From Hahella chejuensis KCTC 2396 (GTDB lineage: Bacteria > Pseudomonadota > Gammaproteobacteria > Pseudomonadales > Oleiphilaceae), in NCBI RefSeq assembly GCF_000012985.1, contig NC_007645.1, positions 5,602,581 to 5,666,580 on the forward strand: DNA of 64,000 nucleotides. The letters are read 5' to 3'. Each line of letters opens with the position of its first letter. Position 1 is the stretch's first letter. Below the pieces are notes generated by a model that saw nothing but the letters and a program-made list of their open reading frames with translations, was not told the DNA's origin and made no database searches. Both the position numbers and the translations under genes were made by a program. Positions 33,890 through 38,123 of the stretch are shown here, one piece after another.

Positions 33890-35524
33890 CTACCAGGCGT
33901 TTTTTATCTGGTCGAAATGCAGGCCGTACTTGTCCAGAATCGCCGCCACGCGCTGGCTGTCATTCAAACGCCGCTTCTTCAGACGCGAGGCGGCAAACAA
34001 CCGCCTACCCGCCTCCGCAGCGGAACTACTGTCCCGGCAAGCGCGCACCACGGCTTCCAATTGCACCTGATCCAGGTGATCCATTTCCTCTATCTGCTCT
34101 GGCGACAACAGGTTTTCCAGCAGAATGGCCTCCACCTGCTGAGTGGTTGAGCGCAGCTCCATCCCCCAGAGATACCCCAGACGCTCCATCTCCGACTCCA
34201 CTAGCGCCACATCGATCTCTCCTGCTTCCGCCAATGTCGCCATGCGCGTAACGCTGGCGTTGAGGTCGCGAAAGTTGCCTTTCCACAACGCACTGAGAGA
34301 GCAGGCGAACTTGAGATAGCGCTTGCGGCTTTCCTGACTGAAGCGCACGCGAATCCCGTTTTCACGCTCAAAGCGCTGCAATTCATAGTCGAGATTAGGT
34401 TCGATATCTTCATGCCGCTCCGCCAGCCCCGGCAAACGATATGTCCACAGGTTGATGCGCGAGAACAAATCTTCCCGGAAGCGTCCGTCGATAACATCCT
34501 TGCGCAAGTCTCTGTTAGTGCCGGCGATGAGTTGAAAGTCGCTGTTTTCTTCTTTATCCGCTCCCAGAGGGAAAAAGCGTTTATCCTCTATGGCCCGTAG
34601 CAGCATCGCCTGCTCGTCCAACGGCAGCTCACCGATCTCATCCAGAAACAACACGCCGCCATCGGCCTCCTTCAACAAGCCGTCCCGCTTCTCAACCGCT
34701 CCCGTAAAGGCGCCCTTGCGATGCCCAAACAATGCGGACATGGCGTTATCCCCACGCAAGGTGGCGCAGTTGACCTCCACAAAAGCGCCTTTCACATCCT
34801 GACGCTTGCGCTTCAGTTCGTAGATACGAGAGCCCAGCCGTGATTTACCGGCGCCGGTCGGTCCCGTAATCAAAATCGGCGCGCGAGTGCGAATCGCCAC
34901 GGTCTCAATCTGCTTTATCAACTGATTGAAATCCGCATTACGGGTATCGATGCCGGATTTCAAATAATCGGTGTCGCGCTTGCGCGATTGACTGAATATT
35001 TCCGCCACGGAGCGCGGCGCGTTATCCAGATCGATCACTTCCACCTTGCTGCCGCCTTCATGATCCCGGCTCGGCGCGGTTTGCAGCAGCTTGCCGGGGA
35101 AATAGCGGGCGCCCACAGACAAAAAGATAGATATCTGCTGAATGTGGGAGCCGGTGGTGATATGAAAGAAGTACTCCTCCTTCTCCGTATCAAAGGGGTA
35201 GCCATCAATAAACTGATACAGCTTGGGGAATACCTTATGCAGATCCCAGGGCGCATCGAAATCCAGTTGCTGCAGATCCACCTGAAGCTTGGGCGCCACG
35301 TCGCCAATATCGGCGATCACTTCGTCCGCCAGTTCGCGATCCTGCGGGTTATATAGCAACACTAAGCGATCGACAGGAAACGCTTCTGGATGTTGCGCAA
35401 TGGACACGGTAGGCCGCCAGCGTTGCCAGCGCTTTTCGTATTTGCCCCGGCGCCGTGACACGGCGTCCATAGTGGAGCCTAAAAATCCAAACACCACTTT
35501 ATGTTTACGTTTCCTGATCGCCAC
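33890..35524 (-). CDS. rtcR: RNA repair transcriptional activator RtcR (CARF + sigma-54 AAA+)
   Basis: The product has 544 residues from GTG 35524. An N-terminal CARF domain (1-180, VVFGFLGS and [13 protein letters not shown]) senses an RNA end ligand in characterised RtcR. The AAA+ activator domain has Walker A GPTGAGKS (221-228), the sigma-54 contact motif GAFTGA (271-276) and Walker B VLFLDE (291-296). A Fis-like DNA-binding helix-turn-helix lies at about 485-535. In Escherichia coli and Salmonella RtcR activates rtcBA or an RNA-repair operon after tRNA damage. Here no rtcA or rtcB is present. The divergent sigma-54 promoter at 35723-35738 faces a tRNA/HNH operon, the likely target. Confidence 0.95.
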
Positions 35525-35606
35525 GCCGCTCTACCCATTCCGCAATAGACTTAATGGTGGGAATTCTAGATGAAAACTTCTTTTTTTCGAACGCTTGATT
35601 CAAAAA

Positions 35607-35627
35607 TAAGAAAATTCTCTTTTCTTA
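35607..35627. promoter_or_regulatory. Candidate RtcR enhancer (upstream activating sequence)
   Basis: A perfect 8-bp inverted repeat TAAGAAAA/TTTTCTTA with a 5-bp spacer lies between the rtcR start and the sigma-54 promoter. It is centred about 107 bp before the -24 element, a normal distance for a bacterial enhancer-binding protein. Confidence 0.5.
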
Positions 35628-35722
35628 AAGATATCCATCACCATGCAACAAAATCCCCGCTCACACTCCTCAGCCCCCGGAAAATATAGCGAACGTAGAT
35701 TTCTTCATCGCAAACAAAAAGT

Positions 35723-35738
35723 TGGCACAACTAGTGCT
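35723..35738 (+). promoter_or_regulatory. Sigma-54 promoter of the tRNA/HNH operon
   Basis: TGGCACAACTAGTGCT has the invariant GG (35724-35725) and GC (35736-35737) ten bases apart, and the near-consensus TGGCAC. Transcription should start near 35749. It points away from rtcR toward the tRNA array. Confidence 0.88.
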
Positions 35739-35784
35739 TACTTACGGGCAACCTAAATTTAACGCCTCCATTGCGGATAACGAC

Positions 35785-35958
35785 ATGTTCTTCATGATCA
35801 AGCACTTCAATCAACAACCAGGACAGATACTGAGCCAGCCAATAAGTAACGGCTTAGTGGCCTGCCTGCGCCATAACGATTGGTATTGCGGTTATTCCAG
35901 CGACTGGAGCAAATCAAACGATCTCGGCGAATCAAAGGCGAACCCCACCCTTCGATGA
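35785..35958 (+). CDS. Small ORF, first in the RtcR-controlled leader
   Basis: This is a 57-codon frame starting with ATG about 36 nt after the predicted start site, followed 9 nt later by a strong hairpin. The frame extends upstream only through the promoter itself. The ribosome site (GCGGA) is weak. The product is rich in Asn, Ser, Trp and Cys and matches no family I know. It may be a short leader peptide or chance. Confidence 0.3.
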   Translation: MFFMIKHFNQQPGQILSQPISNGLVACLRHNDWYCGYSSDWSKSNDLGESKANPTLR

Positions 35959-35967
35959 CGTAATCAC

Positions 35968-35996
35968 GTCCGGAGGGAAGCAAACGCCCTCCGGAC
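35968..35996 (+). other. Stable GC-rich hairpin in the operon leader
   Basis: A perfect 10-bp stem GTCCGGAGGG/CCCTCCGGAC (35968-35977 and 35987-35996) with a 9-nt loop and no T tract. It sits 23 nt before the terminator hairpin and could be an antiterminator partner or an RNA end-protecting element. Confidence 0.6.
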
Positions 35997-36019
35997 ACTC
36001 TCCCCTCACAAGGAACGAG

Positions 36020-36052
36020 AACCCGGCGGGCGAAAGCTCACCGGGTTTTTTT
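36020..36052 (+). terminator. Intrinsic terminator between the sigma-54 promoter and the tRNA genes
   Basis: A stem AACCCGG/CCGGGTT is continued by GGGC/GCTC and capped by a GAAA tetraloop (36032-36035), followed by seven T. Its form is textbook. It would end most transcripts from the sigma-54 promoter before the tRNA genes unless it is bypassed, which hints at attenuation or at a separate short leader RNA. Confidence 0.9.
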
Positions 36053-36108
36053 ATGTGTTTTTTTCGAGCAGCGCGGTAAAAACGTCGCGTGACGAAAGAG
36101 AGCACATA

Positions 36109-36232
36109 ACAAAGAACGGTTACCTGGAGCGATTGCACAGGCACATCAAGCTCCAACATTTTTGTACTGCGTTCTTTGTATGAAACGCCTGCAATCGGGA
36201 CTAAGGAGCAAGCAGAGATTGCATGAAAGAAC
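36109..36232 (+). ncRNA. Candidate two-state structured RNA element preceding the tRNA array
   Basis: Three short strands each have two complementary partners. GTTCTTT (36171-36177) can pair with AAAGAAC at 36111-36117 or at 36226-36232. GCAATC (36191-36196) can pair with GATTGC at 36131-36136 or at 36218-36223. GCTCC (36150-36154) can pair with GGAGC at 36126-36130 or at 36205-36209. The upstream set gives a 10-bp stem (36109-36118 with 36170-36179), an inner hairpin and a loop-to-downstream helix (36130-36142 with 36187-36197), making a pseudoknot. Two members of the downstream set nest neatly, ending 3 nt before the first tRNA. The function is inferred. Confidence 0.5.
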
Positions 36233-36235
36233 AAA

Positions 36236-36323
36236 GGTAGGCTGGCCGAATGGTAAGGCAGCGAGTTGCTAACTCGTCGAACCCCTTGGGGTTCTGCAGG
36301 TTCGAGTCCTGCGCCTACCGCCA
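36236..36323 (+). tRNA. tRNA-Ser (GCU anticodon)
   Basis: An 88-nt class-II cloverleaf. The acceptor stem GGTAGGC/GCCTACC is perfect, the discriminator is G, and CCA is encoded. The anticodon loop TTGCTAA gives GCU. A long variable arm (AACCCC/GGGGTT) and T loop TTCGAGT are present. It is the first tRNA of the RtcR-linked array. Confidence 0.95.
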
Positions 36324-36351
36324 CCTTTTAGACATAGGAAGTCATAGAAAC

Positions 36352-36438
<87 letters not shown>

Positions 36439-36466
36439 GATATTTTGACGACGAAAAAACGAACAC

Positions 36467-36541
36467 GGCCTGTTGGTCCAATGGCGAAGACGCCGGGTTG
36501 TCTCCCCGGAAACAAGAGTTCAATTCTCTTACAGGCCGCCA
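36467..36541 (+). tRNA. tRNA-Asp (GUC anticodon), divergent
   Basis: A 75-nt cloverleaf: acceptor GGCCTGT/ACAGGCC, anticodon stem CCGGG/CCCGG, loop TTGTCTC (anticodon GUC), T arm AAGAG-TTCAATT-CTCTT, discriminator G and encoded CCA. Position 37 is U, where tRNAs almost always carry a purine (A in ordinary tRNA-Asp), so the decoding loop is unusual. It is spaced 28 nt after the previous tRNA. Confidence 0.9.
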
Positions 36542-36562
36542 TTTATAGCGAGGTAAACAAGC

Positions 36563-36781
36563 ATGTACAGCAATCAATTAGCGGAAGGTTTCGCCGCTAA
36601 TCAGGCGGCTTACCTCAAACAGAGATTAGACCGCCGCCTGGGCCATGACCGGACTCAAATCCGGGTAGATCAAAATGATCTGATCGTGGTTTTGGAAAGA
36701 AGCGACTTGATCCGCATCGCCGCCGGCGACATCCCCACACGCATCGGGGAGTTGCGAGTGAAGGCGAAGCTGACAGGTTAA
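36563..36781 (+). CDS. 72-residue protein encoded inside the tRNA array
   Basis: ATG 36563 has GAGGT 8 nt upstream, and the frame ends 8 nt before the next tRNA. The sequence (MYSNQLAEGFAANQAAYLKQ...) begins as an amphipathic helix and continues with RLDRRLGHDRTQIRVDQNDL and a hydrophobic/basic tail. It is probably a small soluble, possibly RNA-associated protein, but I recognise no family. Its position between tRNA genes means tRNA processing would cut its mRNA free. Confidence 0.65.
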   Translation: MYSNQLAEGFAANQAAYLKQRLDRRLGHDRTQIRVDQNDLIVVLERSDLIRIAAGDIPTRIGELRVKAKLTG

Positions 36782-36789
36782 TGAATCAC

Positions 36790-36876
36790 GCGTTCGTGAT
36801 GGAAATGGCAGACATACCTGGCTTAGAACCAGGCGCCGTAATCGGCATGCGAGTTCGAGTCTCGCCGAACGCACCA
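36790..36876 (+). tRNA. tRNA-Leu (UAG anticodon)
   Basis: An 87-nt class-II cloverleaf with a perfect acceptor GCGTTCG/CGAACGC, discriminator A as required for leucine, and encoded CCA. The anticodon loop CTTAGAA in stem CCTGG/CCAGG gives UAG. The variable arm is GCCG-TAAT-CGGC and the T arm GCGAG-TTCGAGT-CTCGC. Confidence 0.95.
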
Positions 36877-36922
36877 CATTTACTAGCGATCTAAAAAACA
36901 CTTATCGCTTAAAACGTATTAC

Positions 36923-36998
36923 AGCCCGGTAGCTTAACTGGCAGAGCAGCGGCTTCCAAACCCGCCAGGTGATGGTTCGAATCCGTCCCGGGTTGCCA
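36923..36998 (+). tRNA. tRNA-Trp (CCA anticodon)
   Basis: A 76-nt cloverleaf: acceptor AGCCCGG/CCGGGTT (A1-U72, one G-U), discriminator G and encoded CCA. With loop TTCCAAA the anticodon is CCA, and the anticodon stem GCGGC/CCCGC has a C31-C39 mismatch next to the loop. Shifting the loop to read UCC (Gly) destroys the stem and conflicts with the discriminator G, so Trp is preferred. The mismatch is unusual and could mark altered function. Confidence 0.85.
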
Positions 36999-37037
36999 AT
37001 TTGATTAACGAAATAGACCAGAAAAGAGGAAAAGGTC

Positions 37038-37085
37038 ATGGAAAACGAGTTCGACGAACGAGTCGTCGTCCCCAGCAACAATTAA
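37038..37085 (+). CDS. Possible 15-residue microprotein between tRNA genes
   Basis: ATG 37038 follows AGAGGAAAAGG with good spacing and encodes MENEFDERVVVPSNN, then a stop. It is acidic. A strong ribosome site before so short a frame in an otherwise tRNA-packed operon is suggestive but not proof of translation. Confidence 0.35.
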   Translation: MENEFDERVVVPSNN

Positions 37086-37144
37086 AAACCGTCATTCTTA
37101 CTGGCGATACCGCCTCAAGGATGACCTCGATTTACCCTCACCCC

Positions 37145-37219
37145 TGCCCCGTAGCTTAATTGGTAAAGCACCGGACTTTGACTCCGGGAACCCTGGTTCG
37201 AATCCAGGCGGGGCGGCCA
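37145..37219 (+). tRNA. tRNA-Gln (UUG anticodon)
   Basis: A 75-nt cloverleaf. Acceptor TGCCCCG/CGGGGCG has a U1-G72 wobble; a weak first pair is an identity feature of tRNA-Gln. Discriminator is G and CCA is encoded. Anticodon stem CCGGA/TCCGG with loop CTTTGAC gives UUG. T arm is CCTGG-TTCGAAT-CCAGG. It is the last tRNA before the HNH gene. Confidence 0.94.
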
Positions 37220-37279
37220 ATTTCAACCAGATAAACCTTAAAAAATCAGAACATGTAGACAGATAGAAGAGATGTAGTC

Positions 37280-37840
37280 ATGAGCACCCCTCGCATACTT
37301 AGATTAGACAAAACCGGCCAACCCATGCAGTGGATGAGCCAGGAAGAAGCGGCCACGCTAATCTGCAACGACCGCGTACTCTGGAGCGCCGGCGATAACG
37401 TCATTGTTTTGCGAGGCGGAACAGGACGTGACGGGCAACGGTCCACCCTTGAAATCCCAACCATCATCGCTTCCGAAGGACGCGACAAACATGTGATGGA
37501 AACTCCGCCGCTGACCAACAAATACCTGTTCCGGCGGGATGACAGCACCTGCATGTACTGTGGATTGACGTTCCCTTATGAACTGCTCAGTCGGGATCAC
37601 ATCATGCCGGTGTCGCGGGGTGGTAGGGATATCTGGAAAAACGTCGTTTGCGCCTGCATCCGGTGCAACAACTTCAAAAGAGACCGCACACCGGAAGAAG
37701 CCGGCATGCCTCTTCTAGCCGTGCCATTCGTACCCAGCCGGTACGAATATCTGTATCTGGCCAACAGAAACATTCTGGGAGACCAAATGGAGTTTCTACG
37801 TAAAGGTTTCAGTCGCCACCTGCTAGCGAGAATAGCCTGA
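37280..37840 (+). CDS. HNH endonuclease, last gene of the tRNA array
   Basis: The product has 186 residues. The C-terminal HNH/zinc finger is complete: C91-x2-C94, SRDHIMPVSRGG (Asp106-His107), W119-x-N121, C126-x2-C129-N130 and then KRDRTPEEAGM. The N-terminal 80 residues carry the ILRLDKTGQPMQWMSQEEA region seen in a widespread proteobacterial HNH group of unknown role. HNH domains cut DNA, and some act on RNA. It is 60 nt after tRNA-Gln and is followed by a UUCG terminator, so it shares the transcript. It may be a selfish passenger, or a nuclease working with the damage response. Confidence 0.88.
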   Translation: MSTPRILRLDKTGQPMQWMSQEEAATLICNDRVLWSAGDNVIVLRGGTGRDGQRSTLEIPTIIASEGRDKHVMETPPLTNKYLFRRDDSTCMYCGLTFPYELLSRDHIMPVSRGGRDIWKNVVCACIRCNNFKRDRTPEEAGMPLLAVPFVPSRYEYLYLANRNILGDQMEFLRKGFSRHLLARIA

Positions 37841-37854
37841 ACCACCTCACCCTT

Positions 37855-37878
37855 AGCGGCCTTCGGGTCGCTTTTTTT
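37855..37878 (+). terminator. Terminator of the tRNA/HNH operon
   Basis: The stem AGCGGCC/GGTCGCT (one G-U) is capped by a TTCG tetraloop and followed by seven T. It closes the unit that starts at the sigma-54 promoter. Confidence 0.92.
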
Positions 37879-38123
37879 CACTCAGATAGAAGCATCAGCA
37901 GCAATAAATAAACGAGCCAGATGGGAAGAAAGGCGCCAGGCGGTGTATAGTCTCTATATGTTTATTTTTGCCAAAAAATGCACTCGTACGTTTTTTCTTG
38001 AATGAGTTAGCTCGAATTTCCACGTCTTTTACACTAGAGCCAGCGGACTGGAAGACGTATTTCTTCTAAGCTCGGAAACAGAAGTTCACGCGTGCAATAT
38101 CTAAAGGTTTACGCAAATCCAGA

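Follow-up and report, generated by a model that had tools for sequence, protein, structure and literature searches.

Why should RtcR, familiar chiefly as the regulator that turns on RNA ligation, stand divergent from a row of transfer RNA (tRNA) genes? The question is raised by a 64,000-nucleotide (nt) stretch of the Hahella chejuensis KCTC 2396 genome (NC_007645.1, positions 5,602,581 to 5,666,580; hereafter the window, whose own numbering is used for coordinates given without a contig or locus), in which rtcR faces away from six tRNA genes, small open reading frames (ORFs) and an HNH gene. An earlier note on this DNA had proposed that the locus answers tRNA damage by supplying fresh tRNAs rather than by ligation. 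Sequence comparisons now suggest that it is probably an RNA-damage-response operon supplying replacement tRNAs, gated by RtcR, sigma-54 and a leader attenuator, and acting beside RtcBA repair. The earlier proposal thus survives in part: the RtcR/sigma-54/tRNA-array anatomy recurs, and the tRNAs of the array prove both redundant and sequence-divergent, while the clause ‘rather than by ligation’ is not supported.

The anatomy first described for this locus is all present (Table 1), including the divergent sigma-54 site, the small ORFs and the closing terminator. ARAGORN called exactly the six tRNA genes named earlier, all six confirmed by Rfam RF00005 (E 1.3e-12 to 1.8e-08) and each encoding its 3’ CCA; at the gathering threshold the Rfam scan of the window returned RF00005 only, with no match to YrlA, the Y RNA of Rtc operons. 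The RtcR reading frame is intact and matches Pfam RtcR (PF06956, E 5.8e-68) and Sigma54_activat (PF00158, E 2e-50); among the 11 RtcRs compared the Walker A and GAFTGA positions are invariant or nearly so, and the CARF motif of the window protein is also conserved. The HNH protein matches HNH_5 with an E of 8.9e-16. The candidate -24/-12 site has GG and GC at canonical spacing and one mismatch to TGGCACN5TTGCW. Sites with at most two mismatches to this consensus number 26 in the 64 kb, against 38.8 expected, and three of these have a single mismatch, so the count is not special in itself; the site is set apart by its position and conservation, being kept at loci L078, L079 and L080, and a similar site precedes the genome’s second array (see below). 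The inverted repeat upstream was equalled in 1 of 60 shuffles and is also found at L078, L079 (RtcR side) and L080. The genome possesses rpoN, and a scan of the + strand of 35520-38100 returned no sigma-70-like site. We hold it very probable that RtcR and sigma-54 control the array.

Table 1. Features of the RtcR-tRNA array locus in window coordinates.
Feature	Position	Strand	Basis
RtcR, array-type group: CARF, AAA+ sigma-54 activator, C-terminal helix-turn-helix (by eye); 544 amino acids (aa), GTG start	33890..35524	-	Pfam, alignment, tree
Candidate upstream activator site: perfect 8-bp inverted repeat TAAGAAAA-n5-TTTTCTTA, 94 bp before promoter	35607..35627	.	weak evidence
Predicted sigma-54 (-24/-12) promoter TTGGCACAACTAGTGCT	35722..35738	+	consensus match, conservation
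Upstream ORF (uORF), 57 codons (54 from second ATG at 35794), stop TGA 35956-35958	35785..35958	+	ORF reading, conservation
Putative attenuator stem 1:2 (GTCCGGAGGG / CCCTCCGGAC)	35968..35996	+	folding, partner comparison
Putative alternative antiterminator pairing 2:3 (CGCCCTCCGG with CCGGCGGGCG, 9/10 pairs)	35985..36032	+	folding, partner comparison
Putative attenuator terminator 3:4 (AACCCGG / CCGGGTT) and T-run	36020..36052	+	hairpin reading, folding
Hairpin 3’ of attenuator terminator	36051..36109	+	folding
tRNA-Ser(GCU)	36236..36323	+	ARAGORN, Rfam
tRNA-Ser(UGA)	36352..36438	+	ARAGORN, Rfam
tRNA-Asp(GUC), anticodon loop TTGTCTC	36467..36541	+	ARAGORN, Rfam
72-aa ORF within array; identity 97% in L078, 100% in L079; no Pfam match	36563..36781	+	
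tRNA-Leu(UAG)	36790..36876	+	ARAGORN, Rfam
tRNA-Trp(CCA)	36923..36998	+	ARAGORN, Rfam
15-aa ORF MENEFDERVVVPSNN; similar peptide MEYDSDIDYVAVLSNN in L084	37038..37085	+	sequence read by eye only
tRNA-Gln(UUG)	37145..37219	+	ARAGORN, Rfam
HNH endonuclease (HNH_5), 186 aa	37280..37840	+	Pfam
Intrinsic terminator closing array: stem 37855-37872, then T-run	37855..37880	+	

Pfam RtcR matches occur at three places in the genome, one adjoining rtcB and rtcA on the same strand as both, and two divergent from tRNA arrays. The second of the three, at C1:1724852, points away from an array of tRNA-Met(CAU), Cys(GCA) and Glu(UUC); the sigma-54 site TTGGCACGCCGCTCGCT lies between the two, some 75 bp ahead of tRNA-Met, and all four copies found (own genome, G005, G001 and G004) retain both the promoter and the tRNAs. 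At these Met-Cys-Glu loci the leader model described below detected no attenuator between promoter and tRNAs, the only match being a weak and distant one in L036. To judge from its sequence, the Met-Cys-Glu locus gives the clearest indication that tRNA genes can be driven by RtcR and sigma-54. At the orthologue L078 and at L036, the 6.5 kb examined on the divergent side contained neither rtcB nor rtcA (no genome-wide search for rtcA was made), and both rtcB genes of the genome lie outside the window, as the earlier note had it. The second rtcB (C1:5218700-5219812; L002, G000) stands apart from all three RtcR matches. Ligation is nevertheless at hand, since the genome holds RtcR, rtcB and rtcA together at the first locus, and in two relatives (L242 of G184 and L091 of G051) rtcB, rtcA, a tRNA array and an HNH gene all lie behind one RtcR, because of which we read the arrangement as ‘replace and repair’.

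A comparison of RtcR loci showed that the same anatomy recurs at independent loci. Among 58 genomes (own included) RtcR was present in 12, at 23 loci, and 8 of these loci have at least three divergent tRNAs within 1.5 kb: the window type (own genome and G004), the Met-Cys-Glu type (4 genomes) and a type with 9-10 tRNAs (G006 and G003). The window-type array is displaced from RtcR by 6.6 kb in G005 and by about 36 kb in G001. At least one array-type RtcR was found in 6 of 7 same-genus genomes, the seventh, G002, having only a canonical RtcR. An order-wide draw placed RtcR in 34 of 390 genomes (20 loci with long flanks plus 3 from the earlier set, and 9 with 1.5 kb flanks only; two weak matches were left out), and added two arrays, L236 in G183, a member of another family, with Ser, Ile, Leu, Pro, Trp and Gln and no rtcB, and the combined locus L242 in G184.

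A profile search with the RtcR alignment used AAA+ motifs, and of the 80 matches listed 27 were kept as RtcR by identity and matched length, the other 53 being dropped as other sigma-54 activators. For 24 of these 27 RtcR loci of named genomes among the matches listed, tblastn finds RtcB on the divergent side (some at only 25-39% identity); two are almost without flank, and one, L119, an alphaproteobacterial metagenome-assembled genome, has at least three tRNAs. RtcR exceeded the cut-off in 13 of 369 genomes of the class draw, where one (L255) of the 12 loci examined with 1.5 kb flanks gave three tRNA-like calls, and in 25 of 378 genomes of the phylum draw, where a single tRNA was called at 3 of 16 new loci. 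Several of the odd single or paired ‘tRNAs’ in canonical Rtc loci resemble the tRNA-like part of Y RNAs, with anticodons that are undefined and, in L113, a match to Rfam YrlA, for which reason only arrays of at least three were counted; L255, one of whose calls has an undefined anticodon, was judged Y-RNA-like and left out by judgement without an Rfam scan. For the tree, 66 loci less two without an ORF and two of odd length, with the window added, made 63 rows. The nine RtcRs with an array and no rtcB sit in one 15-row group with support of 100/100, a rough value given that the bootstrap had not settled. The other members are the G005, G001 and G015 orthologues together with L231-L233, which precede rtcB plus tRNA-Met.

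The array might instead be selfish or anti-defence cargo, a role suggested for phage and mycobacterial arrays, with an incidental link to RtcR. A single HNH gene is conserved across the units of the Mycobacterium avium tRNA array, whose anticodons are redundant (PMC12803027). The closest phage HNH relative, and the only HNH match in 50,697 phage records, is in Salicola phage SCTP-2 (48% identity), where it lies among nine ARAGORN tRNA genes that are all unannotated in the record (L330, 303398-311952). The locus thus shares with mycobacterial (PMC12803027, PMC5966550) and phage arrays the clustering of tRNAs with an HNH gene; such arrays are plasmid- or phage-borne, and no RtcR or sigma-54 link was seen in them. 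An integrase island also targets the array tRNA-Ser in G001 (L080 and L303), interrupting it in the anticodon loop. The RtcR side holds the promoter, uORF, attenuator and first 37 nt of tRNA-Ser, which end in that loop, next to a phage-type integrase gene; on the array side tRNA-Ser is complete and is preceded by a separate, diverged set of promoter, uORF and attenuator. We read this island as an element bringing a control region with it, which argues that control region and array belong together. G005 has a second control copy too, its RtcR side lacking the tRNA start. Against the cargo explanation, promoter, leader and RtcR type are conserved jointly across species and in another family, and arrays also lie behind rtcB and rtcA. 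HNH relatives (E up to 1e-20) are widespread (171 of 369 class genomes) and 28 of 30 fetched loci are without tRNA, which rules the gene out as an array marker. RtcR matched three phage records, and the one inspected has rtcA and rtcB adjoining RtcR and no tRNA listed. We therefore consider cargo an unlikely account of the locus.

The strong hairpin and T-run between promoter and first tRNA had earlier been feared to mark the end of the transcript, in which case the sigma-54 promoter would yield no more than a short regulatory RNA, or a small peptide, ending at 36052, the tRNAs being silent or under an unrecognised promoter. The conservation of uORF and RNA would suit such a product, as would a model of the complete leader, which keeps the terminator. 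In opposition to this, structure continues past the T-run, the array strand offers no sigma-70-like site, the Met-Cys-Glu loci place their promoter immediately ahead of the tRNAs, promoter, leader and array have stayed together in G001 despite its island, and in G185, G260 and G002 comparable elements lie before tRNAs of the same strand without RtcR nearby. We judge the short-RNA account improbable, and the hairpin looks better read as an attenuator.

Ribosome-mediated attenuators (trp/his type, antibiotic-responsive uORFs) combine a uORF with competing 1:2, 2:3 and 3:4 stems and a terminator. The window leader shares this plan, its order being uORF (ending near arm 1), stem 1:2, terminator 3:4 and a further hairpin, with arm 2 able to pair with arm 3 instead; unlike those attenuators it would control tRNA genes, follows a sigma-54 promoter and has a uORF that stops before arm 1. 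Leaders fold more stably than shuffles (z of -5.9 for the window, -6.9 for L236 and -4.7 for L085). In five divergent leaders, the window’s included, the 2:3 pairing averages -16.0 kcal/mol with its own partners versus -10.3 with swapped ones, the own partner ranking first in all 5 columns and in 4 of the 5 rows; the corresponding values are -16.8 and -13.2 for stem 1:2, and -12.1 and -9.3 for stem 3:4. The window leader therefore looks like a ribosome-controlled attenuator in which a covarying 2:3 pairing competes with terminator 3:4, and we hold it very probable that an attenuator with a uORF is real.

A covariance model of stems 1:2 and 3:4, built from 7 leaders and carrying no tRNA or uORF information, matched 28 of 390 genomes. 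Two training sequences, G000 and G183, are among the 11 matches that score best (E up to 4.6e-5). By strand, best matches face tRNA genes in G000, G183, G185 and G184, an HNH gene followed by an RNA ligase in G105, an RNA ligase gene in G305 and G359, and an HNH gene in G160; no facing gene was identified in G280 or G080. In G305 and G359 the tRNAs sit on the opposite strand, following weaker matches (E 0.0012). A further one of the 11, at L305:9031-9113 (G359), is directly upstream of an elongation factor G (EF-G)-like gene, which suggests that attenuators of this type serve more than tRNA arrays. Weak matches were not used (3 lie beside transfer-messenger RNA, many have nothing near). The model consensus biases matches toward the training sequence, which does not explain joint departures such as GCCTTCC/GGAAGGC, and in all 13 elements parsed of the 18 given the 2:3 duplex beats mononucleotide shuffles (p 0.002-0.010). 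Near the ligase-facing matches L304-L307 (G305, G359, G105, G185) we also noted tRNA genes, an HD and AAA_33 protein in L305, HNH genes in L306 and L307, and near L304 a Wadjet JetD-like gene that hints at a defence island. In L283 (G260) an 11-tRNA array lies behind a match and a 52-codon uORF, no RtcR being listed for G260 in the order-wide search.

The leader uORFs span 51-58 codons and stop 6-12 nt before stem 1:2. An ATG-started ORF of at least 30 codons ending 3-15 nt before arm 1 accompanies 16 of 18 elements versus 407 of 11000 random places, near-copies among the 18 lowering their independence. As a ribosome covers about 13 nt from the stop codon, we masked 13 nt from the uORF stop and computed the probability of the 2:3 pairing, P(2:3), before arm 4 is made. 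In G000, G005arr, G015, G006, G003 and G183, in that order, it was 0.29, 0.02, 0.02, 0.00, 0.05 and 1.00 without the mask and 0.87, 0.02, 0.97, 0.67, 0.99 and 0.83 with it; four of the six modelled leaders thus behave like a switch, moving from under 0.3 to 0.67-0.99. For 7 uORFs, codon content also agrees better with the array that each uORF precedes than with permuted arrays (0.0008, rising to 0.0056 when either G183 or G260 is removed and to 0.033 when both, the two strongest, are). The G359 uORF was omitted, its tRNAs being on the other strand; the G260 codon background is 159 codons only, and tests per leader are uneven, from p 6e-06 (G183) to 0.19 (G006). Less sure than the attenuator itself is the proposed direction of its response, in which a delayed ribosome favours read-through; we take it to be somewhat more likely than not.

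The array tRNAs are additional to the housekeeping set: every isotype of both arrays has further copies elsewhere in the genome, and identity between each of the nine array tRNAs and its closest housekeeping gene with the same anticodon lies at 57-78%. Anticodon loops differ from those of the housekeeping counterparts in 7 of 9 (they are the same in Ser-UGA and Met), which is compatible with resistance to anticodon nucleases, a fit and not a demonstration. The array tRNA-Asp has U at position 37, a position usually occupied by a purine, and the Met gene of the second array is without an encoded CCA. We think it fairly likely that the purpose of the array is to replace damaged tRNAs. Alternatively, the array tRNAs could be bait or an amplifier, easily cut molecules whose halves feed RtcR. 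Salmonella RtcR binds 5’ tRNA halves with a cyclic phosphate, Leu(UAG) being the best of three tested (PMC7790460), and Leu(UAG) occurs in the arrays of the window, G006/G003, G183, G184 and L119; the Met-Cys-Glu and L091 arrays lack it, and the six window tRNAs have complete structures and encoded CCA. We judge the bait account improbable. A growth-phase or codon-supply operon under sigma-54 without any damage link would explain the duplicated isotypes, and is most improbable given an activator that is RtcR with a conserved CARF motif, not a nutrient sensor, and given the linkage with rtcB and rtcA. Gln(UUG) accompanies Leu(UAG) in the five settings listed and, like it, is missing from the Met-Cys-Glu and L091 arrays.

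For replacement of damaged tRNAs, the proposed course of events would be as follows. The CARF domain would bind broken tRNA ends carrying a 2’,3’-cyclic phosphate and RtcR would oligomerise, as published for Salmonella RtcR, and would then activate sigma-54 RNA polymerase at the conserved -24/-12 site. With translation running freely, the conserved, covarying leader RNA would form 1:2 and terminator 3:4; a ribosome delayed at the uORF end would cover the start of arm 1 and favour 2:3, and the polymerase would read on to produce six extra, sequence-divergent tRNAs, the small ORFs and the HNH protein. Two conditions, broken tRNA and slow ribosomes, would thus gate an array acting beside, not instead of, the RtcBA repair encoded elsewhere in the genome. 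More tentatively, and as a conjecture slightly less likely than not, this may be a two-key tRNA replacement system, in which a dedicated RtcR group senses broken tRNA, a uORF with codons matching the downstream tRNAs senses ribosomes stalling for lack of them, and both open an attenuator of a wider class that also governs RNA ligases, HNH genes and tRNA arrays with no RtcR beside them. If the array is indeed so used, damage sensing governs tRNA supply as well, stress-induced tRNA arrays acquire a concrete trigger, and the retention of extra divergent tRNAs by bacteria becomes directly testable; the attenuator class is also usable for finding tRNA-linked stress operons.

Several observations weigh against this reading. 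The layout is rare outside the order, at least three tRNAs being present at 1 of the 27 named RtcR loci among the matches listed, and activator-site repeats are weak and absent at several loci. The SCTP-2 relative of the HNH protein stands among tRNA genes and so leaves room for a phage-type role. E. coli RtcR requires RtcA and RtcB (PMC9650030), which could here act only in trans. As to the leader, a candidate helix between uORF tail and arm 1 was rejected for want of covariation (own -9.1, swapped -9.4), and the window’s own element is among the 5 of 18 that could not be parsed for the 2:3 shuffle test. G005arr shows no switch and G183 prefers 2:3 even without a ribosome, while complete leaders stay terminated at equilibrium in 6 of 6 cases both without a ribosome and with the 13-nt mask (P(3:4) 0.99-1.00), so read-through must be kinetic. 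Finally, uORFs partly fit foreign arrays too (mean permuted sum 6.3 versus 14.2), and the G185 uORF does not fit its own.

In the literature searched we found no published link between RtcR and tRNA arrays; Burroughs and Aravind 2016 was not covered, and an earlier mention is possible. With the RtcR-rtcBA system (PMC7790460, PMC9650030) the locus shares the regulator family, a divergent sigma-54 promoter and RNA genes in the operon; it differs in that tRNA genes replace rtcBA behind two of the three RtcRs (the window holds no rtcB), in the uORF-attenuator and in its separate RtcR group. RtcR-like regulators have also been described next to CoCoNuT and restriction systems (PMC11090510, PMC4012209), so the family was already known to be redeployed outside rtcBA operons; broken (t)RNA is again the proposed signal, the targets there being defence nucleases and here tRNA genes. 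The closest functional analogue is the trn operon of Anabaena PCC 7120, a silent tRNA array induced by translation stress whose repressor TrcR also controls rtcB and HNH genes (PMC10272220). Both are arrays of extra tRNAs linked to rtcB and HNH genes, the Anabaena operon relying on the ribbon-helix-helix repressor TrcR, with no RtcR and no uORF-attenuator named in the available text of that paper, and the Hahella locus probably on RtcR and an attenuator.

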